A stretch of DNA of 64,000 bases from Streptomyces sp. CB02056 (lineage in GTDB: Bacteria; Actinomycetota; Actinomycetes; Streptomycetales; Streptomycetaceae), in NCBI RefSeq assembly GCF_001905545.1, contig NZ_LIPD01000006.1:1-64000 (forward strand), given 5' to 3'. Below the pieces are notes generated by a model. It was given only the letters and a program-made list of their open reading frames with translations. It ran no database searches and was not told the DNA's origin. The position numbers and the translations under genes are program-made. Shown piece after piece: positions 3,572 to 40,266 of the stretch (positions are counted from its first letter, which is position 1; each line of letters opens with the position of its first letter).

Positions 3572-4795
3572 ATGAACACCGTGTCACGCCCCGCCCGTCG
3601 CGTCCTCGTCTCCGGGGCCAGCATCGCGGGGCCCGCGCTCGCGTACTGGCTCGACCGGTACGGATTCGAGGTGACCGTCGTCGAGAAGGCCGCCGCCGTG
3701 CGCGGGGGCGGCTACGCCATCGACGTTCGCGGGCCCGCCCGCGAGGTCGTGGAGCGCATGGGGCTGCTGCCTCGCCTGCGCACCGTCCACGTCGACAGCC
3801 AGCGAATCACCTTCGTCGATTCCGTCGGGCGGACCGTCGGCTCGCTGCGCCCGGAACAGCTGACCGGCGGCGCGGCCGGCCACGACCTGGAGGTCCGGCG
3901 CGGCGACCTGGCCGACGCCCTCCAGGAGCCGCTGCGCGGCCGGGTCGAGTTCCTCTTCGAGGACTCGATCGCCGCGCTGGAGGACGACGGGGAGGCCGTC
4001 CACGTACGGTTCGACAGCGGCGCCAGCCGCAGCTTCGACCTCGTGGTCGGCGCGGACGGCCTGCACTCGAACACCCGCCGGCTGGTTCTCGGCCCCGAGG
4101 AGGCCTTCCACCGCTACCTCGGGCACGTCTTCGCCGGCTTCACGCTCCCGAACGAGTTCGGCCTCGTCCGCGAGGCCGTCGTCTGGAACGACGTCGGGCG
4201 CGGCGCGGTCCTCAACGCGCACGAACCGGCCGACCGGCTCCACGGCTTCCTCACCTTCACCCGCGACGACCCGCCCTTCGAGGCCTTCCGCGATCCGCGG
4301 GCCCAGCGCGAGCTGGTCGCCGCGCGGTTCCCGGAGCGGGTCTGGCACCTGCCGCGCCTGGTGGCGGCGATGCGGGACGCCGAGGACCTCTTCTTCGACG
4401 TCGTCAGCCAGATCCACCTGCCCAGCTGGTCGCGCGGGCGGGTGGTCCTCGCGGGCGACGCCGCGCACGCCACGTCGTTCCTGTCCGGCCAGGGGTCCAG
4501 CCTCGCCCTGGTCGGCGCGTACGTCCTGGCCGGCGAACTGGCCGCGCGCTCCGACCACACCGCCGCCTTCGCGGCCTACGAGCGCCGGATGCGCCCCTTC
4601 GCCGAGCGCAACCAGGCGCTGGCCACCGGAGGCGGCACGTCGGTGGCGCCGAGGACACGGGAGCAGTTGGAGGCCCGCAACACCGTGGTGCGCGATCCGG
4701 AATCCGCCGCGAGCGAGCTGGCGACGCCGAGTGCCCGGGCGGCCCGGGCCGCCCACTCGGACCTGCGGCTGCCGGACTACGCCGGACGGCTGTGA
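3572..4795 (+). CDS. FAD-dependent aromatic monooxygenase
   Basis: 407 residues. The N-terminal Rossmann motif VLVSGASIAGPALAYWL (GxSxxGP variant) binds the ADP of FAD, VVGADGLHSNTR is the DG motif, and VVLAGDAAHATSFLSGQG is the GD motif that contacts the FAD ribityl chain. This is the class A flavoprotein hydroxylase fold, close to the TetX/rifampicin monooxygenase-like group that hydroxylates phenols or inactivates drugs. The gene is divergent from a MarR regulator and shares its operators, suggesting substrate-induced expression. The substrate cannot be told from the sequence. Confidence 0.88.
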   Translation: MNTVSRPARRVLVSGASIAGPALAYWLDRYGFEVTVVEKAAAVRGGGYAIDVRGPAREVVERMGLLPRLRTVHVDSQRITFVDSVGRTVGSLRPEQLTGGAAGHDLEVRRGDLADALQEPLRGRVEFLFEDSIAALEDDGEAVHVRFDSGASRSFDLVVGADGLHSNTRRLVLGPEEAFHRYLGHVFAGFTLPNEFGLVREAVVWNDVGRGAVLNAHEPADRLHGFLTFTRDDPPFEAFRDPRAQRELVAARFPERVWHLPRLVAAMRDAEDLFFDVVSQIHLPSWSRGRVVLAGDAAHATSFLSGQGSSLALVGAYVLAGELAARSDHTAAFAAYERRMRPFAERNQALATGGGTSVAPRTREQLEARNTVVRDPESAASELATPSARAARAAHSDLRLPDYAGRL

Positions 4796-4824
4796 CGGTC
4801 AGGACGATCGGGCGACGGACCACC

Positions 4825-4860
4825 GGTGCCGGCCTCCCCACGAACGGGGAGACCGGCACC
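4825..4860. terminator. Bidirectional terminator hairpin
   Basis: The arms 4825-4839 and 4846-4860 pair over 15 bp with one mismatch and a 6-nt loop. It sits between the convergent monooxygenase (ends 4795) and nuclease (ends 4875). Confidence 0.75.
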
Positions 4861-4874
4861 GTCGTCCCCGGCCG

Positions 4875-7274
4875 TTACGGCAGCGGGATGCGCACCACCT
4901 GCGGGTCGTGGTCGCTGAGCTGCGTGCTGAACTCGCTGTTGATGTGCACGATGTCGTAGCTGTACGACGTGGCCGCGAGCGCGCCGGAGATCAGGATGTG
5001 GTCCAGCACCTGCGAGTTGCCCTCGTACACGTAGGTGTAGCGCTCGGGCAGCGGCAGGGTGCGCGGCAGGTCGGTGAGCGAGCCGCCGGCGGTGAGGATG
5101 TCGGCGGTCTGCGAGAACTCGAAGTCGTTGAGGTCGCCGAGCACGATGACCGAGGCGTTCGGGTCCACGGCCAGGATCTGGTCGGTGAAGCCCTTCACCG
5201 CGGTCGCCTGGGCGTGGCGCTGGGTCTCCGAGGGGTGGGCCGGCGGCTGGTAGCGGCCGAAGAGGGGCTGGTCGCCGCCCTTGGAGTTGAAGTGGTTGGC
5301 GATCACGAAGACCGGCTTGCCGTTCCAGCGGAACTCGCCGGCCAGCGGCTTGCGGCTGGAGTTGAACGCCGAGTTGGTCGGGTCGATCCGCCCGGGCGAG
5401 TAGGCGAGCTGCGGTGTGCCGCCCGCGTTCACCACGGAGTCGGCGGTGGTGGATCCGGCGCCGGGGCGGTCGGTGAAGGAGAGGCCGCGGTCGGTGCGGA
5501 ACAGGAACACCTGGCGGATGTTGCCGCCGGGCTGCCCGCCGTCCTGGCCGTCCACCGGGTCGATCTCGCGGTAGGAGTAGGAGGGGCCGCCGGCCGCGGT
5601 GATGGCCGCGGTGAGCTTGGCCAGGGTCTGGGTGGCGCTGACCGTGCCGTCGTCGGTGGCGCCGCTGTTGTCCTGGATCTCCTCGAGGGCGACCAGGTCG
5701 GGCGAGCGCAGGTTGGTCACGATGCCCGCCGCGAGGCCGTCGAACTTGCTCTGCGGGTCGGAGGGGGCGAGGTTCTCCACGTTGAAGGTGGCCGCGGCGA
5801 GCTGCCCGGCCGTCGGCGCGGCGGTGGTCTCGGGCGCGATGCCGCCGGAGGTGACCGCCGGGGTCGCGGTGACCTGGAGGGTGAAGTTGCCGAAGGCGTA
5901 GTCGAGCACGCCGACGGTGGCGCCGTTCAGGGTGTCGCCGACGTTGGCGGTCGGGGTGGGCGCGAGCGCCTTCCCGAGGACGACCCGCTCCGGGTTGCCG
6001 TCGTTCGCCTGGAGCAGGATGCCGCCCCGGTTGGTGCGGGTGGTGCTGCCCGGCGGGACGACGACGAGCTCGCCGTACTTGTTGGTCGGGCCGACCACGG
6101 CCGCGTTGTCGATCTCGACCCGCATGCCCTCCAGCGACCTCCAGAAGTCCAGGCCGTCGGTGGCGGGCTGGAAGTTCCCGGCCGCCTCGACGTCGCCGGA
6201 GGTGACGCTGGAGATGACCGCGGACGGGGGCACCCGCCCGCCCTGGCCGACCACGGTGGCGGCGGGCAGCGCGACGTTGTGGGCGACCACCGTGACGGTG
6301 GGCGCGGTCAGTTCGGTGATCGACAGGTTGGTGGTGCCGCCGGTGCCGCCGGGGCGGTACTGGGTGACGGTGGCGTTAACCGTCACCGAGTCGCCGACCG
6401 CGACCGAGGGCGCGCCGGCGGTGTAGACGTAGATGCCCTCGCTGGTGCCGGGGTCGTTGTCGGGCTGCGGGTCCTGGTACCAGAAGCCGTTGGGGCCGAC
6501 GGCCGTCACCACACCGGGCACGGCGCTGACCGCGCTGCCCGCCAGCGGGGAGGTGCGGGCGGCGCCCTGGATGTCGTGGATGCGGGTGCCGGCGGGGTTG
6601 CCGCCGGTGCCGGTGGAGGAGGAGTTGCGCGGCACGGGCGCGGTGATCGCGAAGTCCGCCGCGTTGTTGTCGGTGTCGGTGGCGCCGCCGCCGGTGCGCA
6701 GGGCGGCGGTGGAGTTCGACAGGTTGCCGGTCGGCGTCCCCTCGGCGGAGCTCGCGCCGCTGCCGTAGCCGACCAGGTCCTTCACCCCGGACTGGCTCGC
6801 GCAGCCCGAAGTGCAGGTCAGCGCCGTGCCGTTGGTGACGAGGGCGACCTTGCCGGAGGTCGCGGACATGGCGATCGTTCCGGTGGCGTCCGGCGTCGGC
6901 AGCGCGGCGCCCGTACCGGCTCCGGCGGCCTCCTGGACGAGGAAGTAGCGGCCGGGCGCGATCGTCCCGGAGAGGGTGGTCCGCGACCAGCTCCCCCCGG
7001 CGGCCGAGGCGTACTGCACCGTCCAGCCGGTGACGGACACCGGCGCGGTGCCGCGGTTGTACAGCTCGACGAAGTCGTTGGCGTACGGGGCGCCGGAGTT
7101 GCCGCCACCGCCGTACACCTGGCTGATCACGATGTCGGGCGACGCGGCCTGCGCCACGCCGCCGGGCAGCGCCACCAGCGCCGCCACCACGGCCGCGGCG
7201 GAGGCCGCCGCGAGCGTCCGGCGCCGGAACCGCGGCGCTCTCGGGTTGATCCGGGGGTTCGGGGTGCTCCGCAT
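4875..7274 (-). CDS. Secreted ExeM/NucH-type endonuclease with lamin-tail domain
   Basis: 799 residues. A twin-basic signal region (RRRTLAAASAAAVVAALVALPGG) is followed by a lamin-tail domain (DIVISQVYGGGGNSGAPYAN ... FVELYNRG), an OB-like middle region, and a C-terminal endonuclease/exonuclease/phosphatase domain. Visible catalytic landmarks are ATFNVENL, ALEEIQD, VIANHFNSKGGDQP, VLGDLNDFE and the final SDHDPQVV. This order is that of ExeM/NucH extracellular nucleases, which degrade environmental DNA for phosphate or biofilm turnover. The ATG at 7274 has AGGAGT upstream. Pho control is plausible, but no PHO box was seen. Confidence 0.92.
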   Translation of the reverse strand: MRSTPNPRINPRAPRFRRRTLAAASAAAVVAALVALPGGVAQAASPDIVISQVYGGGGNSGAPYANDFVELYNRGTAPVSVTGWTVQYASAAGGSWSRTTLSGTIAPGRYFLVQEAAGAGTGAALPTPDATGTIAMSATSGKVALVTNGTALTCTSGCASQSGVKDLVGYGSGASSAEGTPTGNLSNSTAALRTGGGATDTDNNAADFAITAPVPRNSSSTGTGGNPAGTRIHDIQGAARTSPLAGSAVSAVPGVVTAVGPNGFWYQDPQPDNDPGTSEGIYVYTAGAPSVAVGDSVTVNATVTQYRPGGTGGTTNLSITELTAPTVTVVAHNVALPAATVVGQGGRVPPSAVISSVTSGDVEAAGNFQPATDGLDFWRSLEGMRVEIDNAAVVGPTNKYGELVVVPPGSTTRTNRGGILLQANDGNPERVVLGKALAPTPTANVGDTLNGATVGVLDYAFGNFTLQVTATPAVTSGGIAPETTAAPTAGQLAAATFNVENLAPSDPQSKFDGLAAGIVTNLRSPDLVALEEIQDNSGATDDGTVSATQTLAKLTAAITAAGGPSYSYREIDPVDGQDGGQPGGNIRQVFLFRTDRGLSFTDRPGAGSTTADSVVNAGGTPQLAYSPGRIDPTNSAFNSSRKPLAGEFRWNGKPVFVIANHFNSKGGDQPLFGRYQPPAHPSETQRHAQATAVKGFTDQILAVDPNASVIVLGDLNDFEFSQTADILTAGGSLTDLPRTLPLPERYTYVYEGNSQVLDHILISGALAATSYSYDIVHINSEFSTQLSDHDPQVVRIPLP

Positions 7275-29742: not shown

Positions 29743-30807
29743 TCAGGCCGTGACGGCCTGCTCCAGGAGGTCGACGGCGTCCGCGAGGGTGCGAGGGCGG
29801 GCTGCGCCGGCCCGGGGCTGGTCGCGGGCCCAACCGGGACCGGCGGCCACGACCAGGGCTCCGCCGCGGGCTCCGCGCGGGCCCCACACCCTGTCGCCGA
29901 CCCTGCGCACCAGCTCGCGGTCCGCGGTGTGCTGGTCCTGGGACCAGATCATCACGGCCGACGGCCCGATCCGGTGGACGGCGTCGAGCAGGGCCCGGGG
30001 CGGGACGGCCGCGCCCAGTATGCGAAAGGGGACCCCGCGCTCCGTGAGCGCCGCGGCCGTGGCCTCGATGGCGAGGGTGTGCAGTTCGAGGGGCGTCGCC
30101 GTCAGGAGGACGGGCCTCACCTGGCGGGCGGCGGGCCCGCCGACGGCCACGCCCCGCAGAGCGCTGGAGACGTGCCAGGACAGCAGGTGCTCGACCTCGA
30201 CGTACTGCTCGCCGTCCGCCGCCCACCTGCGGCCCGCGGCGCGCAGTGCGGGCATCATGACCTCCGTCCACGCGTCGACCACCCCGAGCGCGTCCACCGC
30301 TTCCCGCAGGATCCGGGCGACCTCCGGCCCGTCCAGCCGCACCGCCGCCCGGGTCAGGCCCCGGCATTCAGGGCGCACCGCTTTGACCCGCGAGGCGTGG
30401 CTTCCGCCTGGACCGTGCCCGAGCCGCCCGCCGCCCTGTGAGTCCGTTCGCGGCTCGGGGAGAGCGCGTCGCGGGCTGTCCTCGTGTACGGAGACGTCGC
30501 GCTCGGCCAGGGCCGCCCGTGCCGCCTCGCCCGGAGGCACCCCGCGTGCCGTCAGCCGGCACATCGTCTCCAGGACGGCGATGTCCCGGGGGCTCCAGCG
30601 GCGGTGGTGTCCGGCCTCCCGACGGGCCGGGCCGATGCCGTAGCGGCGTTCCCAGGAGCGGACCGTCGTGGGTGACACACCCAGCCGCTGGGCCACCCGG
30701 CCGGTCGGAAGCCCGGCATCGTCCACCGGCTCGGGTGCCGGGTCCGGGTCTCCGGATCGCACTCCGATGCGCCGGCCGGGGTCTCGGCCGGCCGATGGGG
30801 TCACCAT
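29743..30807 (-). CDS. MerR-type regulator with B12-binding domain (LitR/CarH-like photoreceptor)
   Basis: 354 residues from the ATG at 30807 (GGGGAGGA upstream). A MerR helix-turn-helix (TGRVAQRLGVSPTTVRSWERR, about residues 33-53) is followed by a variable linker, the light-sensing helix bundle with Trp-x10-Glu-His (WAADGEQYVEVEH), and a B12-binding fold with ELHTL, where CarH has its cobalamin-binding His. CarH has nine residues between Trp and Glu; here there are ten. Proteins of this type repress photolyase and carotenoid genes in the dark and release DNA in light. The photolyase gene is next downstream on the same strand. Confidence 0.82.
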   Translation of the reverse strand: MVTPSAGRDPGRRIGVRSGDPDPAPEPVDDAGLPTGRVAQRLGVSPTTVRSWERRYGIGPARREAGHHRRWSPRDIAVLETMCRLTARGVPPGEAARAALAERDVSVHEDSPRRALPEPRTDSQGGGRLGHGPGGSHASRVKAVRPECRGLTRAAVRLDGPEVARILREAVDALGVVDAWTEVMMPALRAAGRRWAADGEQYVEVEHLLSWHVSSALRGVAVGGPAARQVRPVLLTATPLELHTLAIEATAAALTERGVPFRILGAAVPPRALLDAVHRIGPSAVMIWSQDQHTADRELVRRVGDRVWGPRGARGGALVVAAGPGWARDQPRAGAARPRTLADAVDLLEQAVTA

Positions 30808-31642
30808 CCCGCGGTCCTCCCCGCGGCGAGCCCCGCGCGGCACACCGCCACGGCGGCGATGACCGGCTGCGGGCTCCGGCCCGACCGGGCCGTGTGCGGC
30901 TCGGCCCACCCCGGAGTGGAGATGCCCGCGCACCTCGACGCCTCGCGCTCGGGCGTCTGGGCGGGCGGGCTCGCGGGAGCGGGACGCTCCCGGGCGGGAA
31001 GCTGTCGGGCGATGGTCACGCGCACAGCCTCCCGGTCGACGGCGCACAGGTCCACCCGCCCTGGATGGAACACCGGCACGGACCGGACCACCGGAGGCCG
31101 CCGGCGGCAGGCGACTCCGTACACGGGTGCGGCAACCGCGCGGTGGAGCACCTCGGACGCGCCTTCGTCGCCGGGCGCCGGCAGGTCCAGGAGACGACCC
31201 GGGTCCGCGGCGGTCGGCACTTGCCTGCCGCGGGGATCCAGGCCGGAACGGGTTCGGATGAGCGAGGTCACGCGGCCACGGTGCAGCGGTTCAGCACCGA
31301 TAGCCCATCCGCGTCGTTTGTGCAGCGTTTCCCGGCGGAACCGGACCTGCCGGACGATGGCGAAGCACGACCGCGTCAGCGAGTCCGGCACCCTCGCCGT
31401 CCCCGACCGCCGCCGCGCGACGGCCCGCACGACGGCCACCGCCGGCCCCGGCGGAGACGACACCACGGAGTCCCGTACCGCTCGCCCTCGAACGCCCGGC
31501 GGACACCACCGCGGTCCGCGATACCCCGGCGGTATCCCAGAACTCTAGGATACCGCCGGCAGCGGCCGACACCCAGCATCAGTACGGACGATCCCGCCGG
31601 CGCACGGGCGCCGCGTAAGTGGAGCCAGCTCTGGAGCCGTCC
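30808..31642. other. Intergenic region with an uncertain minus-strand ORF
   Basis: A minus-strand frame (31466-30801) of up to 221 residues overlaps the regulator start by a few bases. It contains a fairly protein-like stretch around VPVFHPGRVDLCAVDREAVR, with faint likeness to SsgA-type proteins, but it has no good ribosome site and an Arg/Pro-rich end. It may be a decayed gene. Plus-strand frames here are not convincing. The right part holds a 12-bp inverted repeat. Confidence 0.3.
31526..31559. promoter_or_regulatory. 12-bp perfect inverted repeat, probable operator
   Basis: CCGGCGGTATCC (31526-31537) and GGATACCGCCGG (31548-31559) are exact reverse complements with a 10-bp spacer. A further GATACC half-site at 31520-31525 makes a second palindrome with 31531-31536. 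It lies about 85 bp before the LAL regulator. It could bind a dimeric regulator, or form a terminator-like hairpin. Confidence 0.55.
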
Positions 31643-34006
31643 ATGACCACCTTGTTCGAGTCCACCGTCCCCCAGCCGGAGCCCGCGGACCACCGGGCCG
31701 TCGCGGGCGAGCTGTTCGGGCGGGCACGTGAGACGGCCGAGCTGCTGCGGCTGCTCGCCGACCCCACCGTGCCGGGCGTGCTGCTGCACGGCCTTCCGGG
31801 CAGCGGCAAGACCCGGCTGGCGTCCGCGGTCGCCGAGCAGTACCGAGCGGCGGGCCCATCCGCCGGAACTCCCCGCCCGGCTTCGTTGCTGACTGTCGAT
31901 CAGGTCGAGCCGGACGAGTACCCGGCACTGCTGGCCCGGTGCGCCTCGACCGGGGCGAAGCTGCTCGCGACCGGCCGCCTGCCAACCACCGGCGCCGACG
32001 TGGCGTACCGGGTGGACCCACTGGCCGTTCCGGTGGACTGGTCACCGATCGACCTGGACGCCTTCTGCCGCATCCCCTCGGTACAGGTCTTCACGGCCGC
32101 CCGGCGGGCCTGGAGCCCGTGCTTCACGGTGACCGCCCGGAACCAGCAGGCCGTAGGCCGGATCTGCGTGGAACTCCGCGGCCTGCCGGGTGCGCTGGTG
32201 GTCGCGGCCCGGATGGCGGCACTGGAGGGCATCGGCGCCGTGCTGGCCGCACTCGGCGGGGCGGGAGGAGACGGAGCCGCAGGAAGCGCCCCCGCAGGAG
32301 GGGGGCTTCCGGCCGACGGCGGGGTGGAGGCCGATCCGAACCGGCCGGTGGCCCCCTGCCCCGGGCCGCGCGTGCCGCCGGCGGGCCGGCCGGCGGACGG
32401 GGCGCCGGGACGAGCGGCGAGGCGACCGGCGGGGCGGAGCGGCCCGCTCGGCGCCGACGAGACGCGGCTGATGTCCTGCGCGCCGCTGTTCGCCGGCGGA
32501 TTCGGACCCGAGGCGCTCCGGGCGGTATCCGGGATCACGCCGAGCGCCTTCCCGGCGGCGCTCGAAGCCCTGCTCGGCCGGCAGTCGCTGACGCTCGAGG
32601 ACCGGCCGTCCGGCCGACTGGACGGTGCGGCCGAAACGCGACTTCACGTGCCGTTCGACGGCCTGCCCGAGGCCCGGCCCGCCGACGGCAGGCACACCGT
32701 CCTCATGCTCCGCCACGCGCGCTACTACGCCCGGCTCGCGGCCGGGGCCGGCCGTCGGCTGGCCGCCGGTGACCAGCCGACAGCCCTGCTCGCCCTGCGC
32801 GTCGAGGAGGCCAACCTCCGATCGGCGGTCGACACCCTGACCGACCACGGGTCCACTGCCGAGGCCCTCGACCTGATGGAGCGGCTGCTCGCCCACGCCC
32901 GCGTCGTCGGCCTCGGCCCGGCCTGGACCGACCGGGACACCGCGCTGCCCGGCTCCACCAGCGCCACGGGTGAACGGGCACGCGTCCGGCTGGCGCTGAT
33001 CCGCGCCGAAGCCCGGCTGCTCGACGGCGACGACGAGTCGGCTACCGCCCTGCTGGGCGAAGCCGAGGCGGCCGCGGACGCGTCGGACCGATGTCGGACC
33101 GAACCCGATGCCCCCTCCACGGCGGCCCGTCTCCTGCGACTGCGGGGCCTGACCGGGTGCGACCGTGACCCTTCCCGAGCCCTCGCCGCACTCACTCGGG
33201 CGGCAGGGCTCCTCCGCGAAGCCGACGACGAACCGGCGGCCCTGCGCGTCGAGTTGGAGGCCGCCCTGGCCGAGCTTCGGCTCGGTCGAACCGGCCCCGG
33301 CAGCGCGCTGGCGGACCGGGTGCTGACCGCCGCGCGGCACCGGGGGGACGCGCTGCTGGCCGGCGCGGCCCTGCTCCACCTGGGTCTGCTCGCCGCCGCC
33401 GACGGCGATCCGTCCGCGTCCCGCGCCCGCTGCGTCGAGGGGCTGGCCCGGCTGCGCCCGCTCGGCGCCGTCGCCACGCTCGGCGCGCTGGTCGGCCTGG
33501 CCGCGAGTCCGCTGCGCCCCGCACCGGCCCGGGCGACCGACGCCGCCCGACTGCTGGGCAGTTTCTACCCGGGGCGGGCCGGCATTCCCGGCGACCCCGC
33601 GGATCCCGACCTGGCCACCGCCCGGCTGCTCCCCGGCATCCGCCGCCGGCTCACCGAGGACGAGTTCACCCACGCACTGGCGGCCGGCGCGGCCACCTCG
33701 CTCCCGGACCTGCTCCGCTCCCTCGGCGAGTCGGACTCCACCGGGACACCGTCGAAGCGGAAGTTGACGAACCGCCAGTTCCAGGTCTCGCTGCTGGTGG
33801 CCGACGGACTGAGCAACCACCAGATCGCACGTCGCCTGGGCATCTCGGAGTGGACCGTGGTCAACCACCTCCGCGAGGCGATGCGGCGGTTGCAGTGCTC
33901 CTCGCGGGTCGGTGTCGCCGGCTGGGTGCACCGCTCCGGCCGGCCGCCGGGCCCCGCTCACGGCGCGAGGCGGGGATGGCACGACGAACCGTTCGAAGCC
34001 TCCTGA
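31643..34006 (+). CDS. LAL-type LuxR regulator with ATPase domain
   Basis: 787 residues from the ATG at 31643 (GGAG upstream); a GTG at 31619 is also in frame. Walker A GLPGSGKTR lies near residue 56. The central part is helical and Ala/Leu-rich, with a Pro/Gly-rich low-complexity insert at about residues 205-275 that differs from normal LAL proteins. The C-terminus has a LuxR helix-turn-helix (LTNRQFQVSLLVADGLSNHQ, then IARRLGISEWTVVNHLREAM). It is convergent with the lanthipeptide operon and is the likely pathway regulator, although RamR-type response regulators are more usual there. Confidence 0.82.
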   Translation: MTTLFESTVPQPEPADHRAVAGELFGRARETAELLRLLADPTVPGVLLHGLPGSGKTRLASAVAEQYRAAGPSAGTPRPASLLTVDQVEPDEYPALLARCASTGAKLLATGRLPTTGADVAYRVDPLAVPVDWSPIDLDAFCRIPSVQVFTAARRAWSPCFTVTARNQQAVGRICVELRGLPGALVVAARMAALEGIGAVLAALGGAGGDGAAGSAPAGGGLPADGGVEADPNRPVAPCPGPRVPPAGRPADGAPGRAARRPAGRSGPLGADETRLMSCAPLFAGGFGPEALRAVSGITPSAFPAALEALLGRQSLTLEDRPSGRLDGAAETRLHVPFDGLPEARPADGRHTVLMLRHARYYARLAAGAGRRLAAGDQPTALLALRVEEANLRSAVDTLTDHGSTAEALDLMERLLAHARVVGLGPAWTDRDTALPGSTSATGERARVRLALIRAEARLLDGDDESATALLGEAEAAADASDRCRTEPDAPSTAARLLRLRGLTGCDRDPSRALAALTRAAGLLREADDEPAALRVELEAALAELRLGRTGPGSALADRVLTAARHRGDALLAGAALLHLGLLAAADGDPSASRARCVEGLARLRPLGAVATLGALVGLAASPLRPAPARATDAARLLGSFYPGRAGIPGDPADPDLATARLLPGIRRRLTEDEFTHALAAGAATSLPDLLRSLGESDSTGTPSKRKLTNRQFQVSLLVADGLSNHQIARRLGISEWTVVNHLREAMRRLQCSSRVGVAGWVHRSGRPPGPAHGARRGWHDEPFEAS

Positions 34007-34096
34007 CCCGGCGGGAGCGCCCGCCGCCCGGGCCTCTGCCGAACCGGATTCCAGGTCGGCCGGTCCGGACACCCGCGCCCCGACCGCTCGGGGCGC

Positions 34097-35611
34097 CTAA
34101 CGCAGCCCGGTGAGGGTCGCCACCCGGTCGAAGCGGCCGTCGATGGCCTCGTCCCCGTGGTGCACGACGAGCAGGGCGCGCCCCTCGGTCCGCTCCCGGA
34201 GCACCCGGAACACCAGCTCCCGGCCGCCGTCGTCGAGGTTCGCGAACGGCTCGTCAGCCAGGTACACGTCCGCGTCCTCGTGCAGGAGCACGGCGACCCC
34301 GACCCGCTGGCGCTGGCCGGACGACAGGTCCGAGGGCAGCTGGTCGGCCAGGGCGTCCAGACCCATCGCGGCGCGCAGCCGCTCGTCGGCGACCAGTTCG
34401 CGCACCGGCAGCGGAGGCAGGTGCACCGGAGCGGTCAGGCTCGCCACCCGGGGCGGCAGGGTGACCGCCCCGGCGTCGGGGGCGAGGGTCCCGGCCATGA
34501 CGTGCAGGAGCGTGGTCTTGCCGCAACCGTTGGGGCCGCGGAGCAGCACGCGCTCACCGACGCGCAGGTCGAACTCGTCGATCGAGACCCTGGCCTCCTC
34601 GCCGTACCCGACCCGGACTCCGCGGACCCGCACCAGGGCCCCCTCGTCGTAGTACGGGGCCTGCCCGGAGTCCCGCAGGGACTCGATCCGCTTGAGGACC
34701 GCGCTGCTCCGGCGGGCCTGCGGAATCATGTTGACGAGGTCGAAGATCCCGGTCACCGCCCGCCACAGCGAGTTCACGAAGGCGAGGAAGCTGCCGAACG
34801 ACATCCGCCCGGCGAAGACGAAGAAGGCTCCGATGATCATCGAGGCGGTGTCCGACAGGTTCATCACCAGGTCGCTGAGGGCTCGCTGCCGCTGTGACAG
34901 ACGGAAGTTGACGAAGGTGAGGTCGAGGAACCCGCGCAACGCGTCCCGGTTCACCGCGCGGGTGCCCGGCAGCAGCGACGGCAGTCCGCGCAGGGCGGGG
35001 AAGGACTCCAGCGTGCGGGTCAGCGTGTTGATGTACCGCGCCTCCGCCTCGCGTTCGGGCCCGGTGTTCTGCTCGATCCGCCTGCCGAGCCGGTTGCTCA
35101 CGAGCACCAGCGGCGGCACGATCACCAGCAGGATGAGGCTGGCCTGCCAGGACAGGTAGAACAGCACGCCGAGGAAGGCGACCGACGCGACCGCCTGTCG
35201 CGCGATGCGGAGGGAGACGTCGATGGCCGGCAGGACGCCCTGGGAGACGTCGTTGTGGATGCGGCTGACGTACGAGGCGTTTCCCGCCTTCGCCACCTCT
35301 CGGCCGTCCAGGCCGAGCGTGCGGCTCAGCAACTCCGTCTCCAGCACCAGTGTGAACGCGTTCTCGAGGCGCTTGCGCCAACAGGCGACGGCGTAGCCCG
35401 TGATGTTGAGGGTCAGTCCGAGCAGGAGGTACCCGAGGCCGAGGACGAGGAACCTGCGGAAGTCGGCGGTCAGGATCGCCTGGTCGAACAGGGCCTTGAG
35501 CAGCAGGGGGTGCAGCAGGGCCTCGAGCCCGCCCGTGGCGGCCTCGGCGACGAGGACCACCACGAACGGGGCCCGGTGGCCCCGCAGCGTACGCCACAGC
35601 CGGTTGTTCAC
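34097..35611 (-). CDS. lanT: Lanthipeptide ABC exporter (LanT-like)
   Basis: 504 residues from the GTG at 35611, overlapping the synthetase stop by 4 bases (GTGA). Six hydrophobic segments fill about residues 10-290. The ATPase domain has Walker A RGPNGCGKTTLL, signature LSSGQRQRVG, Walker B VYLADEPFANLDD and H-loop VVHHGDE. The nucleotide domain is short and there is no N-terminal C39 peptidase, so the leader must be removed by another protease. It is last in the lanA-lanKC-lanT operon. SapB-type loci usually carry two half-transporters; here only one is seen. Confidence 0.88.
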   Translation of the reverse strand: MNNRLWRTLRGHRAPFVVVLVAEAATGGLEALLHPLLLKALFDQAILTADFRRFLVLGLGYLLLGLTLNITGYAVACWRKRLENAFTLVLETELLSRTLGLDGREVAKAGNASYVSRIHNDVSQGVLPAIDVSLRIARQAVASVAFLGVLFYLSWQASLILLVIVPPLVLVSNRLGRRIEQNTGPEREAEARYINTLTRTLESFPALRGLPSLLPGTRAVNRDALRGFLDLTFVNFRLSQRQRALSDLVMNLSDTASMIIGAFFVFAGRMSFGSFLAFVNSLWRAVTGIFDLVNMIPQARRSSAVLKRIESLRDSGQAPYYDEGALVRVRGVRVGYGEEARVSIDEFDLRVGERVLLRGPNGCGKTTLLHVMAGTLAPDAGAVTLPPRVASLTAPVHLPPLPVRELVADERLRAAMGLDALADQLPSDLSSGQRQRVGVAVLLHEDADVYLADEPFANLDDGGRELVFRVLRERTEGRALLVVHHGDEAIDGRFDRVATLTGLR

Positions 35612-38304
35612 CGCGCCGCCTCGTCCAGCAGGAAGTCGGCGGTGCCTCCGGTGTTCACGCGGTGGAGCACCCGCAGCAGCCCCGCCGACCCGGTCAGGTA
35701 GTCGCAGGAGCAGCGCAGCAGCCCCTCGCCGGGAAGACCCAGCAGGGTACGGCCGTCCTGGCGCGGCAGGCCGAAGCGCTCGGCGGGCTCGAACAGGAAC
35801 ACCCTCCGGACGGTGTCGAGCTGCGTCAGCGCCCTGTCGCGGTAGGAGCGGTCCCCGGTGAACTCGGCCGCGTCGAGCAGCGCGTCGGCGATCCCGGTCA
35901 TGCCGAAGCCGTACCCGGGCAGCACCGAGTAGCGGACGTCCAGTCCGCGCAGGACGGTGCGCGCCGCGTCCAGGTCGCCGTAGCGCAGCAGCACCTGCGC
36001 CACGCCGGCGGACCCCACCTCGATGTACGGCTCCATCGTCCCTTCGTGCTCGAACATGACCGGGCCCCCGTCGTTCAGGGGCTTGGCGTGGGCCATCTCC
36101 CAGGAAAGCGCCTGCCGTCCGAGCCGCAGGTGGTGATCCTCTCCCGTGACCTGGTGCATGCGCAGCAGGAACATGGCGACGCCGGCCTGTCCGAAGCCGA
36201 GGCCGGTCAGCGGCCCCTCGGTGGCGAACTCGTTCACCCAGTGGGCTCGCCCGCCGTCGTGCCGCACCGTGTCGTGCAGGGCCTGCGCGCAGTCCCGTGC
36301 CGCGGCGAGGTCGCGCGGGTCGCGGCCCTGCAGGAAGAAGCGCAGGTTCGTCATCCCGACGCCGGCGAGGCCGTAGTAGAAGGTGTAGTCGCCCTTCTCC
36401 AGCGCGCGCCTGTTGGCCCGGGCCAACAGGCGCCTGGCCTCGGTCCCGAACCCGAGCGAGTCGGCCGCCCAGGCGATGCCGGCCAGGCCGTTCATGAGAC
36501 CGTCCGGGTACTCCGCGCTGTCGATGCCGGCCAGTTCGCCGCCCAGCCAGTCGCGCCATTCGGGCCGGATCGCGATGCCGGAGGACTGCAGCGCCCACAG
36601 GACGCCGCTCGCCCCGAAGCCGAGGCTCAGCGGGTTGGTGACGTGAGCGAAGGGGTCCACGGGGAAGAGCGTGCCCCGGCCGGGGTCGGCGACGGCCTCG
36701 ACGAACGCGGCCACTCCGTCCTCCGCCTCCACCAGTCCGAGCCGTTCCTCGACGACCGGCCGCGCCGGGAGGGCCTCGACCTGGTCGAGCAGCTCCGCCT
36801 CGTCCTCCAGGGCGTCCAGCACGTCGGTGAGGCCGATCCGGTCCCCGGCCAGGTCGGTGATCAACCGGTGGACGCGCTCCGGCCAGCCCAGGCCCTCGGT
36901 GATGTGGATCCGGTACAGGTCGAGGACGTCCTCGCGCAGGTAGGACATCGCCGCGATCGGGAAGACGAAGTACGCCATGGTGGACGCCAGGGCGTACCGG
37001 TCGCCCTCCGGCCCGAATTCCCTGAAGCCGTCGCGCGAGAGGCTGAACCCCGGTGTGTAGAGCTCGACGGGCTGCTCCAACTCCGTTTCGCCGCTCCCGC
37101 CGCGGCTGTCGGTCCCGGCCAGCCGGCAGGCCTCCAGGTCGACGATGGTCACCTCGTGGGTGTCCGGGTCGACGAGCAGGTTGGAGGCGGTGAAGTCGGC
37201 GAGGATCACCCCGCGGTCGTGCGCGGCCTGGATCGCGCGGGCCAGCCCGCGGAAGACGGCGAGGAAGATCCGCAGGTACTCCCGCGACTGCTCGATGTCG
37301 AACCCCGGCCGCGCGAGCGGGTTGCGTTCGAGCAGCACCGAGCGGAGGTCGGAGGCGTCGACGAACTCCTCGGCGATGAAGTGGTGCTCCCAGTGGCGGA
37401 ACTTCGCGATCGGGGCCGGGTACGAGCCGATGTCCGCCAGCCGGTTCAGGAACATCCACTCGCGGTCGAGGATGTCCACGGCGTCGTGGTTCCGACGGGG
37501 GTTGATGTTGGTGTGCGGACGGGCCTCCTTGAGCAGCACCGGCCGGTCGTCGTGCGCCGTGTCCTCGGCCGTGTACACGCCGCCGCTGTTGGAGAACTGG
37601 ATCGCCCCGGTCACCCGGAACCGGCCCCCGACCAGGCCGTCGTCCTCGTCCTCGTCCTCGGGCTTCCAGTCGTCGAAGGGCCAGGGCACCCAGTCGGGCC
37701 GGGCGTTCCCCACGCTCCGGTCGTCGGGGACGGGACCGTCCGGTCCGAGGATTCGCGGGTGCCGCCGGCCGAGGACGTCGACGGTGTGGGTGTCGAGGAA
37801 CTGGCCGTAGCGGAAGTACAGCGCCCTGCTGTCCCGGTAGCGCAGGTCCGACAGGACGTAGGCGCCCTCGTAGCCCTCCAGGAGTCCGGCCAGGTCGGCC
37901 AGGACCTTCCTGAACTCGTCGTCACCGCGCGGGTAGACGGTGACGAACTTGCCGCCGCTCCCCCGGGACATGGCCTTGGAGTTGAGCATCTCGAAGACGT
38001 TGAGGTCGAGGGCTATCTTGAAATCGGTCCCGCGTTCCGTCAGATATCCGATCACCGAGGCGGCGACCTCGCGCACGTGACGGCAGCTCGCCGACACGTG
38101 GATCTTCCAGCCCTGCGCCGGCAGGTCCGGGCTGGACCGATGGCTCCACCAGATGCCGCTGCGGACGAACCGCGCCCTCAGCGGCTCGTCGAGCCCGGCG
38201 AGGAAGTGGTCCGCACTCGGTTCGTACGAGACGTCGAGCGGGTCGAAGAACAGCGTGTCGTTCCACGCGAAGAGGAAGCGGTAGACCCATCGTTCGTTGC
38301 GCAT
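35608..38304 (-). CDS. lanKC: Class III lanthipeptide synthetase LanKC
   Basis: 898 residues, the normal size for class III. The N-terminal lyase domain (about 1-210) is followed by a Ser/Thr-kinase-like domain (about 220-520) with the ATP lysine in VLLKEARP, the catalytic loop ILADFTASNLLV and VDLEA in place of DFG. The C-terminal LanC-like cyclase (about 560-890) has YYGLAGVGM and TGLGFGQAG but lacks the WCYG and CHG zinc-ligand motifs, as expected for class III. It phosphorylates and eliminates Ser/Thr in the precursor, then forms lanthionine or labionin rings. The precursor gene lies 89 bp upstream, separated by an attenuator hairpin. Confidence 0.93.
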   Translation of the reverse strand: MRNERWVYRFLFAWNDTLFFDPLDVSYEPSADHFLAGLDEPLRARFVRSGIWWSHRSSPDLPAQGWKIHVSASCRHVREVAASVIGYLTERGTDFKIALDLNVFEMLNSKAMSRGSGGKFVTVYPRGDDEFRKVLADLAGLLEGYEGAYVLSDLRYRDSRALYFRYGQFLDTHTVDVLGRRHPRILGPDGPVPDDRSVGNARPDWVPWPFDDWKPEDEDEDDGLVGGRFRVTGAIQFSNSGGVYTAEDTAHDDRPVLLKEARPHTNINPRRNHDAVDILDREWMFLNRLADIGSYPAPIAKFRHWEHHFIAEEFVDASDLRSVLLERNPLARPGFDIEQSREYLRIFLAVFRGLARAIQAAHDRGVILADFTASNLLVDPDTHEVTIVDLEACRLAGTDSRGGSGETELEQPVELYTPGFSLSRDGFREFGPEGDRYALASTMAYFVFPIAAMSYLREDVLDLYRIHITEGLGWPERVHRLITDLAGDRIGLTDVLDALEDEAELLDQVEALPARPVVEERLGLVEAEDGVAAFVEAVADPGRGTLFPVDPFAHVTNPLSLGFGASGVLWALQSSGIAIRPEWRDWLGGELAGIDSAEYPDGLMNGLAGIAWAADSLGFGTEARRLLARANRRALEKGDYTFYYGLAGVGMTNLRFFLQGRDPRDLAAARDCAQALHDTVRHDGGRAHWVNEFATEGPLTGLGFGQAGVAMFLLRMHQVTGEDHHLRLGRQALSWEMAHAKPLNDGGPVMFEHEGTMEPYIEVGSAGVAQVLLRYGDLDAARTVLRGLDVRYSVLPGYGFGMTGIADALLDAAEFTGDRSYRDRALTQLDTVRRVFLFEPAERFGLPRQDGRTLLGLPGEGLLRCSCDYLTGSAGLLRVLHRVNTGGTADFLLDEAAR

Positions 38305-38349
38305 GTCAGCCTCTGTGATCGTCCGCGGGCAGCCGGTGGGAGCGGCGGG

Positions 38350-38384
38350 GTCCGTGCGGGGGCGCGGCGCACCCCCGCACGGAC
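38350..38384 (-). terminator. Attenuator hairpin between precursor and synthetase genes
   Basis: GTCCGTGCGGGGG (38350-38362) and CCCCCGCACGGAC (38372-38384) are perfect 13-bp complements with a 9-nt loop and no T-tract. It lies 9 bp after the precursor stop codon. Such hairpins in RiPP operons let the precursor transcript exceed that of the enzymes. Confidence 0.75.
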
Positions 38385-38392
38385 CCGTCGGG

Positions 38393-38515
38393 CTACGACT
38401 CGCCGGGCTTCGGCGGGGTGGTGCAGCAGCGGCCGGTGCTGCTCGTCAGGCTGACGATGGCCACGGCGCTCAACTTGACGCGGGCCTCCATGTTCTGGAG
38501 CTTGAGGACACTCAT
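38393..38515 (-). CDS. lanA: Class III lanthipeptide precursor peptide
   Basis: A 40-residue ORF from the ATG at 38515 to TAG at 38393-38395, with AGGAG 10 bases upstream. The leader begins MSVLKLQNMEAR, matching the LxxLQ-ME helix that class III synthetases recognise (compare SapB MNLFDLQSMET). The C-terminal region SLTSSTGRCCTTPPKPGES has Ser22-x2-Ser25-x4-Cys30, a labionin/lanthionine-forming pattern, plus vicinal Cys30-Cys31 and further Ser/Thr at 24, 26, 27, 32 and 33. It immediately precedes lanKC on the same strand. Function after maturation (morphogen, antimicrobial or other) is unknown. The core differs from SapB/AmfS, which have two separated rings. Confidence 0.88.
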   Translation of the reverse strand: MSVLKLQNMEARVKLSAVAIVSLTSSTGRCCTTPPKPGES

Positions 38516-38865
38516 CAGGGTCGTCTCCTGGGAGATCACGTGCGCGGGACGCGCAACAAGGGTGGGATGCGCACCGGCCGGCAGCCGGCACGGGCCCGGA
38601 CCGTGATGCCTCCGCGGCCCGGGTGATGGAGAGTCTCGTCGCGGCGCACCGGGTGCCGGTAGGGGCTGATAGTTGTCATGGCCTTCCGACCGGTTCGGCC
38701 GCAGACTGAAGAGTTGTCGTCCTTCCGGGCCTCGGGCACGACGGCGGCGGAGCCCGCGATTCGTCCTCGCGAGCCCCGCCCGGTGTCACGCTGTCACCTG
38801 CGTCGGCAGCAGTGCCTGTCGCGGCTGACGAGGGTGTGCCCCTCGGTGCCGCCGCGGCGTTCTGA
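38516..38865. other. Promoter region of the lanthipeptide operon
   Basis: No second precursor ORF with a leader motif and cysteines was found on either strand. Minus-strand sequence at about 38640-38710 is more AT-rich and is the likely promoter area, but no clear -35/-10 pair could be fixed. Small open frames here are Arg/Pro-rich and unconvincing. Confidence 0.5.
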
Positions 38866-40266
38866 TCAGGGGTCCACCGTCACGGTGATGGTCTCGGGGT
38901 TGGCACTGTTGTCCTGGTACACCGGGTCACCGCTGTAGACGGCGGTGACGGTGTGGGTGCCCGCGGTGCGGAAGGCGGTGACCGTCCCGCCGGCGGCGCA
39001 GGTGCCGAGGGAGAGGATCAGGCGTCCCGTGCCGAGGGTCGTCCCGGTGGTGGTGTCGGTGAACGTGACGGTTCCGGTGGGCCTGGTCGTGGAGCCCGCG
39101 CCGGGGCAGACGATGTCGCTGAGCACGACCGGCGAGCCGGTCCGGGTGCGCTGGGGCATCGCGGTCAGGGTCGTGGTGATCGGCTTGCCCACGGTGTAGC
39201 TGATGACCACCTGGCCGTTGTGGTTCGCCGTCCCGATCGTCGAGGCCGCATAGGACGTCCCGGTGCCCGACGGGGTCGCGAAGCTGCTTCCCCCACCGCC
39301 ACCGCCGCCGCTCGCCTCCGTGCCGGTGTTGTTGACGGCGCCGCTGCCGCCGCCCCCGCCGGCGAAGTACCCGCCGCCACCGCCCCCGCCCGCACCGGTG
39401 GCGGTGGCGGCACAGCCGCCGTCGATCGCTCCGCCGTTCCCGCCGGTGCCGATCGTGGTGCCGACGAACCCGCCCCCCGGCCCACCCGACGTGGCACTAC
39501 AGGGCGCGGCGGCGCCGGCGGCCCCGCCCGCACCGCCCGTGGTCGTGCTGGTGCTGCCGCCGCCCCCGCCGTGCCCCGCCGCGGCCCCGGGGCCGGTGGC
39601 GCTTCCCGTGGTACCGCCGGTGGCATCGGGCGTCGTCCCGCCGTTGCCCCCGTTGCCGCCCGCCAGGCCGCTCCCGGTGCCCCCGGCGGCACCGCCGCCC
39701 CCGGCGACCACCAGGAAGGAGCCCACGCTGACGCTGGAAGCACCGCCCCCACCCGGCCCTTCCGCCCGGAAACCGGTGACCGGGATGCCCCCACCCGAAG
39801 CACCGCCGTTGAACCCGCCGGCACCCCCCGTACCCGTGCCGTTGCAGCCCTTGCCGCCTGTACCGCCGACGTTGACGGTGACCGTCGTCGGCGCGGTGGT
39901 CTGCGGGAGAGTGGTGACGACCCGCGCCCCCGTCCCGCCCGTCCCCGTGACGGAACAGGAGGTGCCGGTGTTGTCGGCACCGCCCGCGCCGTCGGCGGTG
40001 ATCGTGACCACCGCCTGGGCCGGGATGGTGAGGCTCTGCGGAGCACCGGTGAAACCGAAGGTGACCACCGGGTCGGCCCCTCGGGTCCGCACCGGGGCGG
40101 TGGCCGGCGCGGACCCCGTGGCCGCGGCGGTCGCGGGGCTCAGCCCGGTCCCGGCCAGTGCCACGCACACCCCTGCCACGACACCGGCCTGCCACCACCG
40201 CGCACGAGCCTGGGCACCTGCCTCTCCTTCGGCGACGGGATGTCCTGGGGCATGGTGTCTGATCAC
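38866..40266 (-). CDS. Secreted glycine-rich protein with Ig-like domain
   Basis: 466 residues from a GTG with GGGAGA upstream. A signal peptide (hydrophobic segment about residues 26-47, ending SPATAAA) leads to a beta-rich segment and then about 200 residues of Gly-rich repeats (about 110-345: GGGG, GTGG and GGAGG runs). A C-terminal bacterial Ig-like repeat (about 370-466) has PTGTVTFTDTTTG and HTVTAVYSGD. It is probably a cell-surface or extracellular matrix protein. It lies beside the lanthipeptide operon on the same strand but is separated from it by 350 bp. A link is possible but not shown. Confidence 0.8.
   Translation of the reverse strand: MIRHHAPGHPVAEGEAGAQARARWWQAGVVAGVCVALAGTGLSPATAAATGSAPATAPVRTRGADPVVTFGFTGAPQSLTIPAQAVVTITADGAGGADNTGTSCSVTGTGGTGARVVTTLPQTTAPTTVTVNVGGTGGKGCNGTGTGGAGGFNGGASGGGIPVTGFRAEGPGGGGASSVSVGSFLVVAGGGGAAGGTGSGLAGGNGGNGGTTPDATGGTTGSATGPGAAAGHGGGGGSTSTTTGGAGGAAGAAAPCSATSGGPGGGFVGTTIGTGGNGGAIDGGCAATATGAGGGGGGGYFAGGGGGSGAVNNTGTEASGGGGGGGSSFATPSGTGTSYAASTIGTANHNGQVVISYTVGKPITTTLTAMPQRTRTGSPVVLSDIVCPGAGSTTRPTGTVTFTDTTTGTTLGTGRLILSLGTCAAGGTVTAFRTAGTHTVTAVYSGDPVYQDNSANPETITVTVDP

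Follow-up and report, generated by a model that had tools for sequence, protein, structure and literature searches.

A compact class III lanthipeptide gene set with a twin-cysteine precursor in Streptomyces sp. CB02056

We analysed a 64,000-nucleotide stretch of the genome of Streptomyces sp. CB02056 (the window), in which a lanthipeptide precursor (lanA), a lanthionine synthetase (lanKC) and an ABC exporter (lanT) follow one another on the reverse strand (Table 1). The sequence AGGAG lies 9 bases 5' of the lanA ATG, lanKC starts 88 bases past the lanA stop, and the GTG start of lanT (35611-35609) overlaps the TGA stop of lanKC (35610-35608) in a shared GTGA. A preliminary description of this DNA had read here a 40-codon frame with an LKLQNME leader, a Ser22-x2-Ser25-x4-Cys30 pattern and adjacent Cys30-Cys31, upstream of a complete lanKC that is coupled by a 4-base overlap to a peptidase-less exporter, and all of these features were borne out, lanKC encoding an uninterrupted protein of 898 residues. 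Above Pfam cut-offs LanT consists of ABC_tran and ABC_membrane only, and none of its 13 listed Pfam matches is a peptidase domain. The locus is almost certainly, as regards class assignment, a small intact lanA-lanKC-lanT gene set of class III lanthipeptide type. Upstream of lanA and on the same strand lies a Gly-rich open reading frame with a bacterial Ig-like domain (Big_3_5; 38866-40266). A search for sigma-70-like promoters from 33900 to 38900 gave no promoter-like site, and a search for terminators gave three weak terminator-like sites only, all within lanKC.

Table 1. Features of the lanA-lanKC-lanT locus (positions in the window)
Feature	Position	Strand	Basis
lanA, 40-residue class III precursor, MSVLKLQNMEARVKLSAVAIVSLTSSTGRCCTTPPKPGES	38393..38515	-	NF038160, 48.7 bits; homologues
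lanA core motif Ser22-Leu-Thr24-Ser25-Ser26-Thr-Gly-Arg-Cys30-Cys31	38423..38452	-	family pattern S-x-[TS]-S-S-x3-C-C
AGGAG ribosome-binding site of lanA	38525..38529	-	sequence
18-bp G+C hairpin, loop of 3, between lanA and lanKC	38348..38386	-	stem score, covariation
lanKC, class III lanthionine synthetase, 898 residues, lyase + kinase + cyclase	35608..38304	-	NF038151, PF25816, PF05147
lanT, ABC exporter, 504 residues, GTG start	34097..35611	-	Pfam; homologue (69-81%) in 17 of 19 relatives
LuxR-type regulator, convergent, adjoining lanT	31619..34006	+	AAA_16 match barely above cut-off

The precursor-family search proposed in the preliminary description placed LanA in a curated family: it matches NF038160 (lanthi_III_c, 'class III lanthipeptide') over the whole model (positions 1-33 of 33; cut-off 27 bits, E 6.1e-13). 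The frame had also been thought to fall below gene-calling limits; it is indeed short, but this NCBI model detects it. LanA was the single NF038160 match in the genome among the 150 scored of 173 first-look candidates, and the model found no other precursor there. With a profile of 16 precursor seeds, the window peptide among them, the lanA frame scored 1.9e-19, and the best of all other segments from a six-frame translation of the window reached 0.4. LanA carries a hydrophobic L-x-LQ leader and an S-x2-S-x2-5-C core, and its core (residues 22-40) is hydrophilic, with a GRAVY of -0.77 versus +1.61 for the durhapeptin S26T core as printed in PMC13380574. Its calculated monoisotopic mass (neutral) is 1907.872 when unmodified and would be 1853.840 with three dehydrations.

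A scan of genome contigs returned 25 pattern matches, 19 of which are LanKC relatives with 62-83% identity to the window enzyme. One to five motif-bearing precursors lie upstream of LanKC, and a lanT homologue is present, in 17 of the 19, eight of these 17 having more than one precursor. Plasmids, also considered as a source of relatives, gave a best LanKC of 32% and no precursor. Run over the loci of the 19 relatives and over loci found with NF038160 (in the class, in the genus of the window and in that of a further genome, G385), the latter being loci picked out by a model that favours such peptides, the profile yielded 60 distinct peptides. Forty-six of them lie in loci with a LanKC of the window's group, and 41 of these 46 combine an L-x-[LM]-Q leader with the pattern S-x-[TS]-S-S-x3-C-C; the other five are the L054 peptide, with one extra residue before CysCys, a degenerate copy in L020 and three low-scoring spurious frames. 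Among the 14 peptides outside such loci the motif occurs once, in the orphan L012.

Residue counts were made on the 42 motif-bearing peptides, leaving aside the 18 without the motif (5 in group LanKC loci, 13 elsewhere); as the 42 were selected by the motif, its letters are invariant among them, and the fair count is 41 of 46. The Leu and Gln of the leader motif are fixed in all 42, in support of the earlier claim of a class III operon with its cognate precursor. At its third position the motif has Thr in 40 peptides and Ser in 2, and at its seventh Ser in 36 (Gly28 in the window); Asp stands in 21 where the window has Arg29. The motif is preceded by 21 residues in 39 peptides and by 22 in 3. 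Behind CysCys the tail is 5 to 11 residues long and differs in sequence from peptide to peptide. A Pro-rich tail had been described, and at least one Pro is indeed found in 39 of the 42 tails, but 21 have just one, and only 7 have three, as in the window; the triple-Pro tail is atypical of the group. Nor is the core unusual, as had been supposed, since its pattern is the consensus of a subgroup within NF038160. That family is broad, and other members that pass its cut-off, encoded beside other LanKCs, have cores such as SSCDSQSC (L033), SSGSCDSNSC (L036, L037) and SGLCTSTSASTGC (L051); the S-x-T-S-S-x3-C-C set is one subgroup of it.

NF038160 matched above cut-off in at least 3 of 394 genomes of the class, at least 7 of 70 of the window's genus and at least 12 of 392 of the genus of G385, and the twin-cysteine type, as read from the peptides, occurs in at least 3 of the 70 and, not counting the L054 variant, at least 7 of the 392. 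All of these are lower bounds because part of the first-look candidates was scored per genome (19 of about 50-130 in the class and the genus of G385, at most 94 in the window's genus). One genome of the window's genus, G433, has the same precursors as Streptomyces sp. CB01881 (L018) and, by identity to the window LanKC, seemingly the same enzyme. In L020 a degenerate second precursor (4771-4896; GLTSGAADC, CysCys broken) comes straight after an intact one. At L101 (around G385:C1:7154334) and L102 a twin-cysteine precursor stands as an orphan: the genes called within ~8 kb include neither a LanKC nor a LanT, and the sole close LanKC of the genome is 3.8 Mb away, so that modification in trans is possible. 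A different class III set (L053, L065, L067, L068; genome G499) has several short precursors beside a ~32% LanKC; CysCys occurs in one of them (SSASFGSQCC), and others have just one Cys (SSASFQC).

In the literature covered we found no paper on the motif or product of this subgroup. Key reviews and supplements lay outside that coverage, so the lists of PMC7268733 may well contain these peptides. Neither motif nor product is mentioned in the available passages of PMC8960859, PMC9576775 and PMC7601586; the last covers the species of two relatives, and the words 'class III' are absent from its main text. This kind of precursor is, in short, already recognisable by a curated model, while for its twin-cysteine subgroup no product was found in the literature covered.

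We compared LanKC with known synthetases. It scores 601.6 bits against the class III model NF038151 (cut-off 575) and 418.2 bits against NF038150 (cut-off 650), and class IV (LanL) membership was rejected. The window enzyme keeps each of the 13 lyase and kinase positions that were checked, and the whole set is retained in 18 of 20 group LanKCs; eight lyase residues, the kinase Lys and the D-x-E were taken from passages of PMC10604976, and the kinase Asp and Asn from an alignment with ThurKC. In the cyclase, the stretches LPGYGFGMTGIAD and RCSCDYLTGSAG, located by motif in place of a confident structure, have no Cys-His pair, and the domain appears to lack the Cys, Cys-His zinc ligands. Cys672, Cys865, His554 and His881 are invariant in 20 of 20 group LanKCs; such group-specific residues could form another metal site, in a region where the AlphaFold model (pLDDT 63.8) is poor. 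All of the best 20 Foldseek matches of this model are lanthipeptide synthetases (ThurKC, SalKC, PneKC, CurKC, CuvL). With ThurKC of Bacillus thuringiensis (PDB 8SAM, 8SAO, 8SAP; passages of PMC10604976) LanKC shares the three domains, a zinc-ligand-free cyclase and the eight lyase residues, but the two are only 20-21% identical in the Foldseek alignments, and they superpose poorly, with an rmsd above 11 Å over the whole chain.

In a tree of 46 LanKCs the 20 group members make up one side of a branch found in 100% of 200 bootstrap trees (100/100), the other side holding 26 further LanKCs of the window's genus, among which long branches may have been drawn together. The window LanKC itself is not on a long branch (0.11). 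Non-group LanKCs are at most about 37% identical to it in the best blastp segment (short fragments reach 43%), and the genome of the window has further distant copies, the best of them 35% identical at full length. The cyclase motif is mostly [GA]-Y-[GASC]-F-G in the group and mostly G-L-F-[N/H/R/E]-G in the other sampled LanKCs. Phe800 occurs in 18 of 18 intact group members; of the 26 others, 2 have a gap at this site and none of the remaining 24 has Phe. Cys672, Cys865 and Glu839 are nearly or wholly private to the group. In this tree the group LanKCs come out as a single branch with full support, and their cyclase motif is altered. In ThurKC, F770-D771 replace the zinc ligands and matter for labionin formation (passages of PMC10604976). 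By motif analogy, the altered motif of the group may occupy the place of F770-D771, which pairwise alignment positions unreliably in the window LanKC (second domain i-Evalue 0.076).

The two group LanKCs that do not retain all catalytic positions come from Streptomyces virginiae (L028:5001-7535) and S. amritsarensis (L029:5001-7532). In both, the kinase has lost its Asp, its Asn and the first residue of D-x-E, and the equivalents of K94, K108, K117 and R191 are gone as well; no precursor was found at either locus, and lanT is missing. Their dN/dS is 0.56, versus 0.23-0.33 in four intact pairs. Judging from these changes, substrate, exporter and catalysis have been lost together, perhaps in one event, because the two are sister rows. 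Their frames are open, the cyclase Cys and His residues of the group are kept and the regulator is still adjacent; these LanKC homologues may be either decaying genes or repurposed pseudo-enzymes.

The hairpin between lanA and lanKC is a second conserved element. Its score in the window is 50, compared with a mean of 22, a 95% limit of 30 and a maximum of 50 in 465 control segments, and the whole intergenic stretch is unusually stable (z -3.31; 1 of 200 shuffles equally stable). A hairpin between the last lanA and lanKC was present in 18 of 18 loci tested, namely the window and the 17 precursor-bearing relatives, where scores range over 36-52. In an alignment of 17 of these 18 loci, 98.8% of cells pair, a figure favoured by taking the best stem of each intergenic stretch and by the relatedness of the sequences; sliding the alignment lowers it to 32-56%. 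The stronger evidence, since stem choice and kinship inflate pairing, is that 8 of 15 pairs are altered on both sides, versus a mean of 3.5 after shuffling, with none of 500 shuffles that high. The hairpin is not wholly private to the group, a comparable stem occurring within 150 bases upstream of 4 of 26 other LanKC genes, all of the L070-L072/L084 group. No T-run follows it on the 3' side; it is therefore likely to be an attenuator or an mRNA-stabilising element. We found no paper on such a hairpin in the literature searched, and no Rfam family scored above threshold.

We also looked at control elements shared by the relatives. Each of the 19 relatives has a LuxR-type ATPase regulator of ~1000 residues next to its cluster; apart from the queries themselves, these proteins are 37-91% identical to one or the other of two query regulators. 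In L013-L027 and L030 a palindrome-like box stands upstream of lanA: 16 of 17 relatives have ATGGGG-N8-CCCATGT, allowing for up to 2 mismatches, 78-130 bases 5' of the first lanA, compared with 7 of 338 random segments that match as well. The pattern was derived from an alignment of 13 of the 17, and three of the other four also have at most 2 mismatches. The box is possibly the site of the conserved regulator. Neither element was found in the window: the two regulator queries had no match in the 64 kb at E 1e-5, and the best box within 900 bases upstream has 4 mismatches, the commonest control value. The operon thus appears to have lost the control elements of its group, and it may be expressed under other control or be silent. 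The LuxR-type gene of the window adjoins lanT, at the place where the large regulator stands in most relatives, but resembles the relatives' regulators over about 100 C-terminal residues only; it is at most a candidate partner of the operon. Beyond it, on the reverse strand (29743-31047), is a gene for a MerR-type regulator with B12-binding domains, an architecture known from the light-responsive CarH/LitR proteins.

How the product might be made can be proposed from the parts. By homology, the L-x-L-Q helix of the leader would dock on the kinase domain of LanKC, the kinase would phosphorylate Ser and Thr of the core and the lyase would eliminate the phosphate. The metal-free cyclase may then form a bond between Cys30 and dehydrated Ser25, as a rule followed by one between Ser25 and dehydrated Ser22, which gives a labionin; it may also join Cys31 to dehydrated Ser26 (or Thr24/Thr27) in a second thioether. 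LanT, again by homology, would export the peptide, and an unlinked M1-type metalloprotease would trim its leader. The hairpin, to judge by its structure, could let the lanA transcript exceed that of lanKC. The expected need for an unlinked protease is consistent with the locus: none was found within the operon, and M1 peptidases (PF01433) occur at nine places in the genome. According to passages of PMC10885120, AplP-like M1 proteases encoded outside clusters process class III peptides. PF01433 is also present in 8 of 14 control genomes, S9_N has one marginal place in the window's genome, and no particular M1 peptidase is tied to the operon.

We read the ring pattern from the conserved residues: Ser22/Ser25/Cys30 matches the class III motif, Ser26/Cys31 repeats its Ser-x4-Cys spacing, and the regular occurrence of Ser26 together with the two cysteines speaks for the use of both cysteines. 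On the best reading, Ser22, Ser25 and Cys30 would form a labionin or lanthionine, and Cys31 would take part in a second crosslink. Taken as a whole (operon, workflow and use of both cysteines), the proposal is probable, with considerable room for doubt; the exact two-ring topology, taken alone, we advance tentatively, as somewhat more apt to be wrong than right. A fused bicycle on the adjacent cysteines, in which the altered-cyclase LanKC branch would interlock a labionin on Ser22/Ser25/Cys30 with a lanthionine on Ser26/Cys31 (both Ser-x4-Cys), is a speculative and rather unlikely form; such a topology is absent from the passages of class III literature examined. Ser26 and Cys31 could also have been conserved for a purpose other than a second ring: recognition, a vicinal disulfide or the binding of a metal. 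The same operon could then make a single crosslink, a lanthionine or labionin on Cys30 or Cys31, with the other cysteine free, disulfide-bonded or metal-binding. Ser22-x2-Ser25-x4-Cys30 satisfies by itself the class III motif S-x2-S-x2-5-C given in passages of PMC11251773, labyrinthopeptins have a disulfide beside the labionin (passages of PMC10676316), and noursin, a LanKC product, can bind copper (passages of PMC10206099). However, 41 of the 46 hits beside group LanKCs, and L054 too, have both cysteines and Ser/Thr residues in addition to the labionin trio, and we consider a single crosslink plausible but doubtful.

The remaining alternatives concern the operon itself. Its genes may be open with expression or selection gone after the loss of regulator and box, as the control-level box and the unmatched regulator queries would allow; the best match to the large regulator in the genome is only 33% over residues 28-445, and L028/L029 show that decay does occur in the group. 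Against such a decayed or silent cluster, three frames are open, the ribosome-binding site of lanA is good, catalytic residues and hairpin are intact, the LanKC branch is not long and another LuxR-type gene adjoins the operon, which makes it improbable. It is still less probable, indeed very much so, that the operon makes a morphogen of SapB/AmfS type: durhapeptin, of that family, shares the set of lanA, lanKC and transporter (passages of PMC13380574), but LanA has a single Ser/Cys cluster, not two S-x2-S-x3-C motifs, and its LanKC is on a branch separate from the 26 others of the genus, whichever of these may serve SapB. That lanA is a chance frame and the true precursor lies elsewhere was rejected as having next to no probability; G385 does encode a twin-cysteine precursor far from its LanKC, but the lanA frame matches the family, is conserved in position and letters in 17 relatives and gave the one NF038160 match found in its genome.

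The proposed two-crosslink product would come from a compact class III subgroup of one enzyme, precursors of 36-43 residues and one exporter, in which tail and loop have varied and two adjacent cysteines with their likely partners have been kept. If both cysteines do cyclise, the subgroup would offer an undescribed ring topology and a LanKC cyclase motif unlike that of ThurKC, which would be useful for understanding what decides whether a zinc-free cyclase makes lanthionine or labionin. The subgroup also bears on regulation and decay in class III operons, through its covarying hairpin, conserved box and inactivated LanKC copies.

Labyrinthopeptin, SapB and AmfS have two ring motifs each. Durhapeptin also has two, according to passages of PMC13380574. 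The window system has in common with all four the enzyme class, the LQ leader and the S-x2-S-xn-C logic, but its core has one cluster, adjacent cysteines and a short hydrophilic tail. Membership of the SapB/AmfS group, with its two S-x2-S-x2-5-C motifs and hydrophobic core, was rejected on the single cluster and the negative GRAVY, which fits the earlier expectation of a product unlike SapB/AmfS. A noursin-like (LanKC-Hbt) assignment, with a core His for histidinobutyrine and a single Cys, was likewise rejected. As described in passages of PMC10206099, NorA has a single Cys and a His crosslink in its core and the nor cluster an S9 peptidase, whereas the window core has two Cys and no His and its operon no such peptidase; the two systems are alike in their short cores and in having a separate LanKC subgroup whose cyclase domain is divergent.
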